Assembly: GCA_020073665.1 (NCBI GenBank)
Contig: JAIQEU010000016.1
Span: 1 to 64,000, forward strand
Length of the DNA: 64,000 nucleotides
From: Terriglobia bacterium
GTDB lineage: Bacteria; Acidobacteriota; Terriglobia; Terriglobales; Acidobacteriaceae
Direction: 5' to 3'
Positions 23,939-62,758 of this stretch are shown one piece after another; the first letter of the stretch is position 1; every line of letters begins with the position of its first letter. The position numbers were made by a program, and so were the translations under genes. Under the pieces are notes generated by a model. The model was given only the letters and a program-made list of their open reading frames with translations. It made no database searches and was not told the origin of the DNA.

Positions 23939-25108
<1,170 letters not shown>

Positions 25109-25127: not shown

Positions 25128-25158
25128 AGTACCGAGTACCTCGGTGCCGAGTACCGAG
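25128..25158. repeat. AGTACCGAG tandem/hairpin repeat upstream of ribBA
   Basis: The stretch holds repeated AGTACCGAG and GAGTACC units that can also fold on themselves. It lies about 20 bases upstream of the ribBA start. A single related unit, AGTACCGAGTAGCGAG, covers the rhodanese stop codon at 63171-63186. Confidence 0.5.
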
Positions 25159-25191
25159 CAACGCGCCATAAGGGGAGTCCAGCCGCGCAAC

Positions 25192-25280
25192 AGCCGCGAA
25201 GCGGCGACAGAGTGAAGCCCACGGCGCCAGCCGTGGGTGGGCGTTCAATCCCGACCCAGCCCCAAAGGGGCGCAAGAGAC
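25192..25280. repeat. Three-stem intergenic element, copy 1
   Basis: The roughly 89-base element has three hairpins in a row: GCCGCgaaGCGGC, CCCACGGCgccaGCCGTGGG and GCCCCaaaGGGGC, ending CGCAAGAGAC. A second copy at 62059-62149 has the same stems but different loop sequences and the same orientation. It may be a REP-like mobile repeat or a structured RNA. Confidence 0.75.
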
Positions 25281-25303: not shown

Positions 25304-25906
25304 CTATTTCACCAATTCTCGCTCGGCGCCGCGGAACAATCCACGTAGCGCCCGTACCACCCAGCGCGCCAGGAGCACAATAATCCCGAGCAGCACGACC
25401 ACAATGCCCGCTGCCCAATAGGGGTGCCGGGTGGCAAACCAGGTCAGAAAAACGGCGACCGCATCCTCACCGAAACTCAGTGCGATGTTCGAAAAAGGCT
25501 CGGGAGACGGGGTGACCGCGGCGCGCACGGCGGTCTTTCCGCCGTGGGCGGCCAGGGCAATGGCCCCGCCCGCGGTTGCTGCCAAGACTTGTTCCCAGGG
25601 CGAGAGTGCTGCGGTAGCGTGGTACGCGATTAGGGAAGCCGCTGGGACGCGGATAAAGGTATGCAACGCATTCCAGATCAGGTCGAAGACCGGTATCTTG
25701 TCGGCGACAAACTCAATGGCGAACATCACCCCGCTGGCCGCAATCACGTACCAGTTCGCCATCACCTGCAACTCGGGAGGCAACGGCAGTAGCCCGGCAT
25801 GCGCCAGCAGACCAAGCGTCGCCAGGGTGGCATACAGGTTCAGTCCAGCGGCAAAGCTGATCGCTACCAGCAGCGCAACCAGTTCGTTGGTGGGGATGTG
25901 CGGCAT
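25304..25906 (-). CDS. DUF4126 integral membrane protein
   Basis: This 200-residue protein has about six hydrophobic segments. The N-terminus reads MPHIPTNELVALLVAISFAA, and the family pattern GLNLYATLATLGLLAHAG is followed by FAIEFVADKIPVFDLIWNAL. The C-terminus has GIVVVLLGIIVLLARWVV and a basic tail. DUF4126 proteins are conserved in acidobacteria and other groups without an assigned function. The ATG at 25906 is preferred over the TTG just before it. It is about 90 bases downstream of a minus-strand terminator, so it probably has its own promoter. Confidence 0.85.
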   Translation of the reverse strand: MPHIPTNELVALLVAISFAAGLNLYATLATLGLLAHAGLLPLPPELQVMANWYVIAASGVMFAIEFVADKIPVFDLIWNALHTFIRVPAASLIAYHATAALSPWEQVLAATAGGAIALAAHGGKTAVRAAVTPSPEPFSNIALSFGEDAVAVFLTWFATRHPYWAAGIVVVLLGIIVLLARWVVRALRGLFRGAERELVK

Positions 25907-25959
25907 CAAGAAAACCTGCCGAGCGGATTAGGCCAGCCCAGGATGTGAACAGCAAAAGC

Positions 25960-60235: not shown

Positions 60236-62002
60236 TCACTTGCGTTTCCCGGAACGGCCTTTGACTTTGATGGCCACTACGGTCTGGTCGTCGAACGTCT
60301 CCTCTCCGGCGGCGTGATCGGCTACGGCTTTGAACAACGAGTTGACCACGCAGTCGGCGGAAACGTTGGCACACTTGGCCACGATCTGTTCAATCTGCTC
60401 GCGCGTGAACATTTCGCCGGCTTTGTTGCGCGCATCCAGGATGCCGTCACTGAAGAACACAAACATGTCCCCAGGCTTGGCCCGGAAGGTGAATTCGTCA
60501 TACTCAGCGTCGTCAAACAAGCCCAGGGGCAGCCCGGTGGCTTCGATGATTTCGATCTTGCCATCGTGGCAATACACGGGCCGCGGCAGGCCCGAGTTGG
60601 CGACCTGCAGGGTGCGGTTGGCGTCGTCCCACACCGCGTAGATCAGCGACACGAACTGGCCTTCGATGCGGCGCTCGCCCAGGGAGAAGTTCACCGCCGA
60701 GAGCATTTCGGCCGGCCCCGGCTCAATCGGTGCATGCGAGCGCAGGATGCCGCTGACCAGCGCCGCGTAGATGGCCGCCGGCGCGCCTTTGCCACTGACA
60801 TCGCCCACCACGATGGCGGTGCGGGAGAGGGAATAGCTCACGAAGTCGTAAAGATCGCCGCCAATGGCCCGCGCCGGAGCAAACTTGGCCGCGAAGTCGA
60901 GATTCGTCACTTTGGGCAGCGAGTGCGGTAAAAGCCGGAACTGCAATTCGCGCGCCAGGGCCAGGTCGCGCTCGAGTCGCTTCTCCTGGCGGGCGATTTC
61001 TTCGTAGAGCCGCGCATTCTCAATCGCAATCGCCACCTGCGCCGCCAGCGTGGTCACGGTGCGCTTGTGGTCCTCGGTAAAGAATCCGCGACGGGTGTGC
61101 TCCAGGTCGAGCACGCCAATCACCTTGTCTTTGTAGATCAGCGGCACAGCCAGCTCGGAGCGCGTCTCCGGGTTCGCCATGATGTAACGGGAATCTTTGC
61201 TGACGTCCGGTACCAGCACGGCCTGCTTGTGCTGGGCGGCGTAGCCGACCAATCCCCGGCCCAGGGCGATGTCGTGTTTGAGCTGGATATTTTCCTGGAA
61301 GCGCAGGGAAAACCGGTGTTGCAGCTTCTCCCCGCCGGGCTCGAGCAGCAGGATGCTGAACATCTGGTAGTCGATCAGCCGGCTCAGCAGTTCCGCAATC
61401 CGCTTGAGCAGCTCATCCACGTTCAGAATAGACGTGAGTTCGCGGGCAATCTCGTTCAGCAGCACCAGGGTGCGGGCCTGCCGGGTGGTACGAGTGTAGA
61501 GGCGGGCATTCTCGATGCCGATCGCCATGCGCGACGCGATCAGCATCAGCAGCCGCTGGTGTTCCTCGGTGAAGTGGTCGGCCTGCGGCGACTCAATGTC
61601 AATGACGCCGATGATCTTGTTCTTGACGATCAGCGGAACCGCCAGCTCGGAGCGCACATTGGGCACGCTGGAAATGTAGCGCTTGTCTTTGGTGACATCG
61701 CCCACCAGCACGGCCTCGCGCCGCTGTGCCGCAACCCCGGTCACGCCTTCGCCGACTTTTACCCGCAGCCGCTCGGCAATCTCGCGGGGATGCCCCACCT
61801 GGAAGCGGATATAGAGCTCCTGCGTCTTCTCGTTCAACAGCATGATGGCGAAGATTTCGTAGTCAATGACTTTGCGCACCAGTTCGGCCACACGGCGCAA
61901 GGTCGTGTCCAGGTCTAGGGTCGTATTGACCACGTCGGCCACTTCCAGAAGAAGCGGTTCAACTCCAGCGGGGACGTCAGGTTTGAGGACAGTCGTTTCC
62001 AT
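60236..62002 (-). CDS. Protein phosphatase with two GAF domains and SpoIIE domain
   Basis: This 588-residue protein has a GAF domain at about 15-165 (RFQVGHPREIAERLRVKVGE, SELAVPLIVKNKIIGVIDIE), a second at about 185-340 (SELAVPLIYKDKVIGVLDLE), a coiled linker, and a PP2C/SpoIIE phosphatase domain at about 375-583. The metal-binding aspartates lie in AIGGDLYDFV, VVGDVSGKGAPAAI, MFVFFSDGILDA and TFDDQTVV. Such RsbU-type proteins act on anti-anti-sigma factors after sensing a small ligand. No anti-sigma partner is nearby. Confidence 0.92.
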   Translation of the reverse strand: METTVLKPDVPAGVEPLLLEVADVVNTTLDLDTTLRRVAELVRKVIDYEIFAIMLLNEKTQELYIRFQVGHPREIAERLRVKVGEGVTGVAAQRREAVLVGDVTKDKRYISSVPNVRSELAVPLIVKNKIIGVIDIESPQADHFTEEHQRLLMLIASRMAIGIENARLYTRTTRQARTLVLLNEIARELTSILNVDELLKRIAELLSRLIDYQMFSILLLEPGGEKLQHRFSLRFQENIQLKHDIALGRGLVGYAAQHKQAVLVPDVSKDSRYIMANPETRSELAVPLIYKDKVIGVLDLEHTRRGFFTEDHKRTVTTLAAQVAIAIENARLYEEIARQEKRLERDLALARELQFRLLPHSLPKVTNLDFAAKFAPARAIGGDLYDFVSYSLSRTAIVVGDVSGKGAPAAIYAALVSGILRSHAPIEPGPAEMLSAVNFSLGERRIEGQFVSLIYAVWDDANRTLQVANSGLPRPVYCHDGKIEIIEATGLPLGLFDDAEYDEFTFRAKPGDMFVFFSDGILDARNKAGEMFTREQIEQIVAKCANVSADCVVNSLFKAVADHAAGEETFDDQTVVAIKVKGRSGKRK

Positions 62003-62058
62003 GAATCCCTAATGATAACAGCCGGGGAAAATGCCCCAGCTCGGGGGCCAGTTCCGCA

Positions 62059-62149
62059 AGCCGCGAAGCGGCGAAAGAATGCAGCCCACGGCTTAAGCCG
62101 TGGGTGGAAAGTAGAACATGTGCAAGCCCCTTTCAGGGGCGCAAGAAAC
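62059..62149. repeat. Three-stem intergenic element, copy 2
   Basis: The roughly 91-base element contains GCCGCgaaGCGGC, CCCACGGCttaaGCCGTGGG and GCCCCtttcaGGGGC and ends CGCAAGAAAC. Compared with the copy at 25192-25280 the stems match and the loops differ, as expected when base pairing is conserved. It lies between the phosphatase and hpt genes. Confidence 0.75.
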
Positions 62150-62158
62150 CGCTGCTGA

Positions 62159-62719
62159 TCACCCGCGCGGCACCACGCAAATATCCGGCAGATTGCGGTA
62201 CCGTTCCGCGTAGTCCAGCCCATAACCCACCACGAACTCGTCGGGGATGCTGAAGCCCACGTAGTCGGCCTGGATGGGTTTTTTCCGCCGCGAAGGCTTG
62301 TCGAGCAGGGTGGCGATGCGCAGTGCTTTCGGCTTGTGCGCCAGCAGAATGCTTTTCAGGTAGGTGAGCGTCAGTCCCGTATCCAGGATGTCTTCGACCA
62401 GGATCACGTTCTTGTCTCGCATGGACTGATCCACATCTTTGGTCAGGCGCACCTCGCCGGTTGAGTCCCAGCCGTGCTGCAGCTCCTGGCTGGGGGTGGG
62501 TCGGTTGCCGTAGCTGGAGACACCGATGAAATCGAACGTGGCATCCAGATCGACGTGCCGGGCCAGGTCGCCCAGAAAAATGGCGGCGCCTTTCAGCACG
62601 CCCACAAATATGATGGACTCCCCGGCGAAGTCGCGGGTGATCTCCGCGCCCATCGCGGCCACGCGGTAGGCAATCTGATCACGCGAAATCAGAACTTTCA
62701 GGTCGTTCACGGCAAACAT
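62159..62719 (-). CDS. hpt: Hypoxanthine phosphoribosyltransferase
   Basis: This 186-residue enzyme salvages hypoxanthine (and often guanine) with PRPP. The PRPP loop is NVILVEDILDTGLTLTYLKS. Earlier come FVGVLKGAAIFLGDLARHV and FDFIGVSSYGN. Later VGFSIPDEFVVGYGLDYAER is seen, a hallmark of the family. The start is MFAVNDLKVLISRDQI at 62719. A start 27 bases upstream is unlikely. It heads a minus-strand set with the phosphatase and lysA. Confidence 0.95.
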   Translation of the reverse strand: MFAVNDLKVLISRDQIAYRVAAMGAEITRDFAGESIIFVGVLKGAAIFLGDLARHVDLDATFDFIGVSSYGNRPTPSQELQHGWDSTGEVRLTKDVDQSMRDKNVILVEDILDTGLTLTYLKSILLAHKPKALRIATLLDKPSRRKKPIQADYVGFSIPDEFVVGYGLDYAERYRNLPDICVVPRG

Positions 62720-62732
62720 ATTAATGCAGCAG

Positions 62733-62758
62733 TTGGCATTTAGCACTTGGCATTTAGC
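62733..62758. repeat. Direct repeat TTGGCATTTAGC upstream of hpt
   Basis: TTGGCATTTAGC occurs at 62733-62744 and again at 62747-62758, with a 14-base period. It sits just upstream of the hpt start on the minus strand. Confidence 0.6.

Follow-up and report, generated by a model that had tools for sequence, protein, structure and literature searches.

Solo three-hairpin modules in an acidobacterial contig as probable end modules of an IS200-like transposon

The window analysed here, a single stretch of 64,000 nucleotides, holds two copies of a three-hairpin module that are, with high probability, solo, non-autonomous ~90-bp end modules of an IS200-like transposon with a TnpA-Y1 transposase of subclass 1.2 (HUH plus Y---Q--HH). 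Directly supported are the module anatomy, the covariation of the stems, the tight linkage to subclass-1.2 tnpA genes, the unit boundaries in two genomes and the co-occurrence of module and gene across the phylum; binding, cutting and transposition of the module by TnpA we infer by analogy. The Rfam 'sRNA' label is most likely a misassigned mobile DNA element.

Scanning of the whole window with R1, a covariance model built from 24 of 46 extracted copies, returned copies 1 and 2, both among the 24 building sequences, and no third match at E≤1. Rfam assigns the same two copies to RF01687 (Acido-Lenti-1) at 49.5 and 54.2 bits against a cut-off of 37. An earlier note on this DNA had placed two three-hairpin copies here in a common orientation, and both models confirm it. 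The Rfam model measures 46 nt and spans two of the three hairpins, the palindrome and the right one, of a conserved unit of ~90 bp. The RF01687 motif is reportedly found near group II introns. The features, in window coordinates, are as follows.

23939..25108, minus strand: ribBA gene (DHBP synthase/GTP cyclohydrolase II; PF00926 + PF00925), downstream of copy 1; start codon assumed
25191..25278, minus strand: copy 1, full ~90-nt three-hairpin module (R1, 78.8 bits, model 1-90, E 6.9e-17)
25192-25237: RF01687 match of copy 1 (Rfam)
25193..25205, minus strand: copy 1, right (second) terminal hairpin GCCGC-TTC-GCGGC, then T (Rfam, R1)
25218..25237, minus strand: copy 1, central 8-bp palindrome CCCACGGC-TGGC-GCCGTGGG (Rfam, R1)
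25259..25271, minus strand: copy 1, left (first) terminal hairpin GCCCC-TTT-GGGGC, beyond the Rfam model (R1)
25304..25909, minus strand: DUF4126 gene (Pfam PF13548), stop codon 25 bp before copy 1; context only
60236..62002, minus strand: GAF/SpoIIE gene (PF07228, PF13185), downstream of copy 2; context only
62058..62147, minus strand: copy 2, full ~90-nt three-hairpin module (R1, 74.7 bits, E 6.2e-16)
62059-62104: RF01687 match of copy 2 (Rfam)
62060..62072, minus strand: copy 2, right terminal hairpin GCCGC-TTC-GCGGC, then T (Rfam, R1)
62085..62104, minus strand: copy 2, central palindrome CCCACGGC-TTAA-GCCGTGGG (Rfam, R1)
62126..62140, minus strand: copy 2, left terminal hairpin GCCCC-TGAAA-GGGGC, beyond the Rfam model (R1)
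62159..62746, minus strand: hpt-like phosphoribosyltransferase gene (PF00156), stop codon 11 bp before copy 2; context only

In minus-strand direction the module consists of a GCCCC..GGGGC-T hairpin, a variable spacer, the 8-bp palindrome CCCACGGC..GCCGTGGG-CT, ~12 nt and a GCCGC-TTC-GCGGC-T hairpin. The differing loops, paired stems and tail CGCAAGA(G/A)AC that the earlier note had described are all present in both copies, and Pfam calls on the flanking genes agree with its placing of both between minus-strand genes. No likeness between the flanks of copies 1 and 2 was found beyond the module ends, their alignments scoring 16 and 14 against an average of 15 for one-flank shuffles. Antisense within ribBA lies a V_AS9 Rfam match (24896-24999, plus strand; 50.3 bits against a cut-off of 50), probably reflecting coding-sequence similarity rather than RNA. 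A short AGTACCGAGTACC..GAGTACCGAG repeat is present upstream of the same gene (25128-25160), and similar GTACCTAGTACC runs occur in intergenic stretches of two further loci (L139 and L090).

The check proposed in that note, a covariance model scanned against relatives, revealed strong stem covariation and further copies in other genomes. Across alignment A1, comprising the window pair and 22 copies from its own and other genomes (n = 24), the three helices are paired in 98.6% of cells, 84 cells have changed on both sides versus 20.9 after shuffling, and 14 of 18 pairs display such a two-sided change, figures that lean towards well-formed copies because the 24 were picked for showing the third hairpin clearly. 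When the partners were shifted by a single column, pairing fell to 42.6 and 54.4%. The window pair alone yields no compensatory change, since its stems are identical in both copies, and the signal becomes visible only across genomes. Covariation of this kind fails to separate RNA from single-stranded DNA. A C closes each end hairpin and a T comes next in 23 of 24 copies, CT stands directly after the palindrome in all 24, and the foot ahead of either end hairpin is most often TGCC (8/24 each). Within one module both end hairpins are direct repeats, and on the opposite strand the palindrome foot reads ATAG in 10 copies, TTAG in 4, GAAG in 3, GTAG in 2 and others in 5 (n = 24).

Y1 transposase genes (PF01797) are found in 17 of 20 copy-rich genomes, with RF01687 adjoining some of them. 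The module-flanked proteins, mostly 142–155 aa in length, possess a DHxH-like motif, WQ and Y---Q--HH; in 31 sequences W92, Q93, Y112, Q116 and H120 are invariant and the other H of HH is conserved in at least 90%, while the HUH is variable. By motif, not by its authors' HMMs, these proteins are assigned to TnpA-Y1 subclass 1.2. One of them (L058) matches PF01797 at E 4.3e-27, NF033573 is above cut-off in three of four flanked proteins, and the nearest solved structure by profile is the ISHp608 transposase, 2a6m; 2xm3 and 2xma we take to be ISDra2. The same four proteins gave 28.6 and 16.7 bits and, in two cases, no match to NF047646 (REP-associated tyrosine transposase; cut-off 80). The search for a RAYT/TnpA-REP enzyme suggested in the earlier note has led to a Y1 partner located elsewhere, which by its motifs is an IS200-like subclass 1.2 protein and no canonical RAYT. 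Class 3 TnpA-Y1 of Acidobacteria, described in the cited part of PMC6006769, was considered as partner and dropped, the flanked proteins bearing the subclass 1.2 motif.

Inspection of 55 Y1 loci (38 of subclass 1.2 and 17 other) with R1 reveals how closely module and gene are linked. The 38 loci come from 20 genomes selected for their high RF01687 copy number; 18 of them were among the first 30 loci, 17 with a module, and 20 were added from strong PF01797 matches. At 37 of the 38 a module lies ≤61 bp from the gene, on both sides in 30 and as an inverted pair in 28; the one miss is a pseudogene (L064) that, like L215, was placed in the subclass by a looser motif, and the module call at L219 is a 15.9-bit match. 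Upstream copies are antisense in 34 of 35 cases and downstream copies sense in 29 of 32, leaving one upstream and three downstream copies in the opposite orientation. Among the 17 other Y1 genes, R1 placed a module within 300 bp of none, with one at 334 bp. A further 19 subclass-1.2 loci, out of 30 from a phylum search, each contain at least one module match, some of which are weak or deviate from the usual orientation or position (L245, L250, L255).

A protein-only scan of named genomes, free of RF01687-based selection, gave at least 586 stretches, from which 80 loci were kept, with gene ends taken as tblastn match ends and phylum labels from record titles. A module lies ≤200 bp from the gene in 70 of these 80, on both sides in 54 and inverted in 45 of the 54. 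By group, the counts are 23/23 in Acidobacteriota, 24/24 in Planctomycetota, 7/7 in Verrucomicrobiota, 4/4 in Deltaproteobacteria, 2/2 in Calditrichota and 1/1 each in Chloroflexota and Nitrospirota, or 62/62 outside Bacteroidota and Gammaproteobacteria and 8/18 inside, where R1 finds the module at 8 of 17 and 0 of 1 loci, respectively. Upstream and downstream copies number 62 each, and in both sets 8 are in the opposite orientation. The tally draws on part of 245 match rows, with repeat and weak rows dropped; restoring these could do no more than raise the ≤200 bp count (e.g., L323, E 0.07), but might alter which copy is nearest. A model-free comparison, with fixed gene ends at most loci, detected an inverted repeat between both flanks in 61 of the 80 loci, while the control of 12 other Y1 genes had such repeats, of other sequence, in three. 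Where units carry both modules, the module's own partner is the best match in 17 of 21 units versus 6 expected, so each transposase tends toward its own module type. At one locus (L228, genome G258) DHIN replaces DHxH, removing the second HUH histidine, with both modules kept; this sequence suggests an inactive transposase copy.

The module–tnpA–module unit (~0.7 kb) recurs at different sites in two genomes. In the first (G074), two loci (L215 and L217) are 82% identical over ~695 bp, a stretch bounded on each side by the outer hairpin, and are unrelated beyond; a third copy at a contig end (L073) has ~76 bp past the outer hairpin also in common with L215, so the unit end is not sharp for this pair. 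In the second (G257), L210 and L211 behave similarly, less sharply. The earlier note had held that a long IS of which the copies are only the ends would count against its reading; elsewhere, modules do end an IS-like unit of ~0.7 kb, whereas the window copies are solo.

Comparison with relatives adds cases of presence and absence, which fall short of proof of insertion. The copy-2 site is without a module in two relatives (G303 and G084) that have the same gene order, by R1. Three sites were compared between another genome, G121, and its genus mates: at S1 the full module is not matched by R1; at S2, with one module, the gap in G334, the mate alignable there, is shorter and module-free, and the adjacent module has a diverged counterpart (33.7 bits); at S3, the site of an inverted pair around ~550 bp, all three alignable mates are module-free, namely G334 (with a shorter gap), G333 and G073. 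No clean empty-site junction could be aligned at S1, S2 or S3, because the flanks have diverged. A home-made module scanner applied to 400 kb each of G123 and G165 returned 10 and 13 matches in repeat clusters, at least one seemingly false, and one length difference with no clean junction. One unit with its flanks (G141), compared with 41 genomes of its genus, gave no usable joint match to both flanks among the matches listed. Many of the 20 modules in G121 (examined at L195-L203, L191-L193, L206 and L207) are enclosed by larger units whose terminal inverted repeats are TGTCTGYGTCATAGC or of a second type, several of these units flanked, by eye, by a short duplication, CCTACGG or CCTGCGG, from the loop of another REP hairpin. 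As judged by eye, the larger unit would be a MITE carrying a REP and inserting into REPs, and another transposase may therefore spread the copies there.

The window's own genome (5.42 Mb) contains 17 RF01687 matches at E≤1e-3, 10 of them above cut-off, and 22 copies with the full model R1. No subclass-1.2 tnpA was matched in it at E≤1e-15, leaving the window copies without an assignable local partner. It does encode five Y1 genes of other types (PF01797), which were rejected as partners, being of other types and having a module in none of their five loci. These genes (L018-L022, on C16, C38 and C54) include two that score as REP_Tyr_transpos (L018 and L022), and L019, L021 and L022 are surrounded by palindromes of another sequence, e.g., CCCACTCAAGCC..GGCTTGAGTGGG; by sequence, genes and palindromes make up a second REP system. 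Probable histories for the own-genome modules are that they are relics, or that the enzyme which moved them has disappeared since or is absent from the 62-contig assembly.

Across the phylum, RF01687 matches occur in 78 of 297 genomes (threshold 1e-3, up to 20 candidates scored per genome), with sharp differences within one family and one genus. Transposase (threshold 1e-15) and RF01687 are both present in 57 genomes, RF01687 only in 21, tnpA only in 11 and neither in 208, corresponding to an odds ratio of 51 that ignores kinship among genomes. The gene is thus missing in 21 of 78 RF01687 genomes, including a 650-contig assembly (G140) with many near-identical copies, and RF01687 matches are missing in 11 of 68 tnpA genomes. 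Thirteen of 16 genomes of other phyla, reached via tnpA loci, carry RF01687, with 9–126 copies in 12 and 3 in one; it was matched in none of the remaining three, all Bacteroidota. Counted over the loci of the protein-only scan, the module–tnpA association extends over at least eight phylum-level groups. Regular head-to-tail module arrays were observed in the planctomycete Roseimaritima (~100 bp apart; G336:C130:101317-101662) and in Desulfonema magnum (69–206 bp apart; G346:C1:166057-166789), whose genome has 126 RF01687 matches.

Among known systems, the IS200/IS605 family (IS608, ISDra2) shares with the present unit a Y1 transposase, ISHp608 being nearest, and direct-repeat end hairpins, here within one module. 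It differs in that the tnpA unit described here is bounded mostly by inverted modules, with hairpins at the extreme tips; to our knowledge, IS200/IS605 elements lack inverted repeats at their termini, and in IS608 the hairpins of the left and right ends are direct repeats. PATEs and REPINs are short palindromic mobile elements, a general description that our module would share. The likeness to RF01687 consists of the central palindrome and one terminal hairpin, with both window copies above cut-off. RF01687 is described as a predicted motif or sRNA with no assigned function (Weinberg 2010, PMC2864571), and differs in that the present module has ~90 nt, a third hairpin and a transposase-gene flank, the last without mention in the cited portion of that paper.

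In Table 1 of Quentin 2018 (PMC6006769), TnpA-Y1 subclass 1.2 is entered as 'REP: no', and the cited sections describe it as generally lacking typical terminal IS200 structures and as occurring mostly in Cyanobacteria and Bacteroidetes. The proteins studied here share DH[IV]H, WQ, Y---Q--HH and a length of ~148 aa with that subclass, but are module-flanked and occur in Acidobacteriota, Planctomycetota, Verrucomicrobiota and others. REP/REPtron systems with TnpA-REP/RAYT, as outlined in the parts of PMC6006769 and PMC8266576 drawn on here, likewise have palindromic repeats flanking a Y1 gene, inverted and dispersed copies and CT by the hairpins, whereas here there are three hairpins per ~90-nt module and a transposase not of class 2 by motif. 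Their GT[AG]G foot is replaced here mostly by ATAG or another NNAG, GTAG occurring in 2 of 24 copies. According to the cited text of PMC8266576, TnpA-IS200 and TnpA-REP bind single-stranded hairpins, a guide sequence 5′ of the hairpin selects the cut site, and REPs are commonly cleaved at CT. TIRtrons, in which a Y1 transposase (TIRYT) lies between inverted repeats, as here, include a named Acidobacteria group in the cited part of PMC3733652; compared by description only, these acidobacterial TIRYTs possibly overlap with subclass 1.2.

Rfam types RF01687 as a small RNA, and a genuine trans-acting RNA from intergenic regions would fit both the above-cut-off scores of the window copies and the strong covariation of three helices, which is expected of RNA too. 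DNA hairpins read by a Y1 transposase should covary as well, however, and such an RNA appears highly improbable against the many copies per genome (9–126 in 12 of 16 other-phylum genomes, 22 in the own genome), the patchy presence within families and the position right beside a transposase gene, usually in inverted pairs; what Weinberg 2010 (PMC2864571) gives, in the cited portion, is a predicted motif. The earlier note had offered 'structured RNA or REP element': the REP/mobile half is strengthened by the position of the module beside one particular type of Y1 transposase, in most cases as two inverted copies around it, and the RNA half corresponds to the RF01687 database label, a matter of prediction and annotation. 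A cis-acting role, as a 3′-UTR or a terminator/attenuator element of neighbouring genes, would suit copies lying 11 and 25 bp past a stop codon in the sense direction, as those of the window do. Yet a rough ORF tiling around 17 copies of the own genome puts the upstream gene on the module's strand in 8 cases and on the opposite one in 8, with no strand call in 1; 7 of the 17 overlap a tiled ORF (read as over-long ORF starts, unproven). The copy-2 site, moreover, is module-free in two relatives with conserved gene order, and we give this role very little probability.

The terminal-inverted-repeat units that enclose many of the 20 G121 copies, several with a short duplication seen by eye, speak for a third origin, in which the module is a passenger of other MITEs and the tnpA link marks a preferred landing site only. 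Against it stands the close tnpA linkage, with modules on both sides and inverted at most loci across several phyla. In the window, elsewhere in the family and in a second genus, moreover, what recurs is the module of ~88–90 bp rather than the MITE; we regard this origin as most unlikely.

On the favoured reading, as end modules of an IS200-like transposon, the complete unit would consist of an inverted module, tnpA (~150 aa) and a second module over ~0.7 kb, with the outer hairpins as ends. The transposase would recognise single-stranded hairpins, as TnpA-IS200 and TnpA-REP do, may cut beside them at the conserved CT, and could move the whole unit or a single module. Such TnpA-driven movement would account for the high and patchy copy number, the strong stem covariation and the presence/absence among relatives. 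We put at somewhat below an even chance the further proposal that each ~90-nt module is a complete miniature single-strand transposon, movable alone by subclass-1.2 TnpA; the enzyme could excise and insert a lone module because its two end hairpins repeat each other in direct orientation and have similar feet, like the ends of IS608.

Already known are the 46-nt core, as an Rfam family, and subclass 1.2, as orphan transposases. In the open-licence PMC literature we found no paper linking RF01687 to a transposase, nor the union of module and transposase, the third hairpin, the compact inverted unit or its spread. Their association makes the orphan Rfam 'sRNA' a DNA substrate open to testing and supplies a partner sequence for an orphan transposase subclass that the cited sections of PMC6006769 describe as REP-less. 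Annotations naming Acido-Lenti-1 as a possible regulator, such as that beside Tannerella proteases in the cited part of PMC13298647, may describe mobile repeats. The matched transposases and hairpins form a natural series of pairs for how Y1 enzymes choose DNA. Should the lone-module transposon prove true, few known mobile units would be smaller, and it would be one that Rfam files as an RNA and that occurs in eight or more phylum-level groups.
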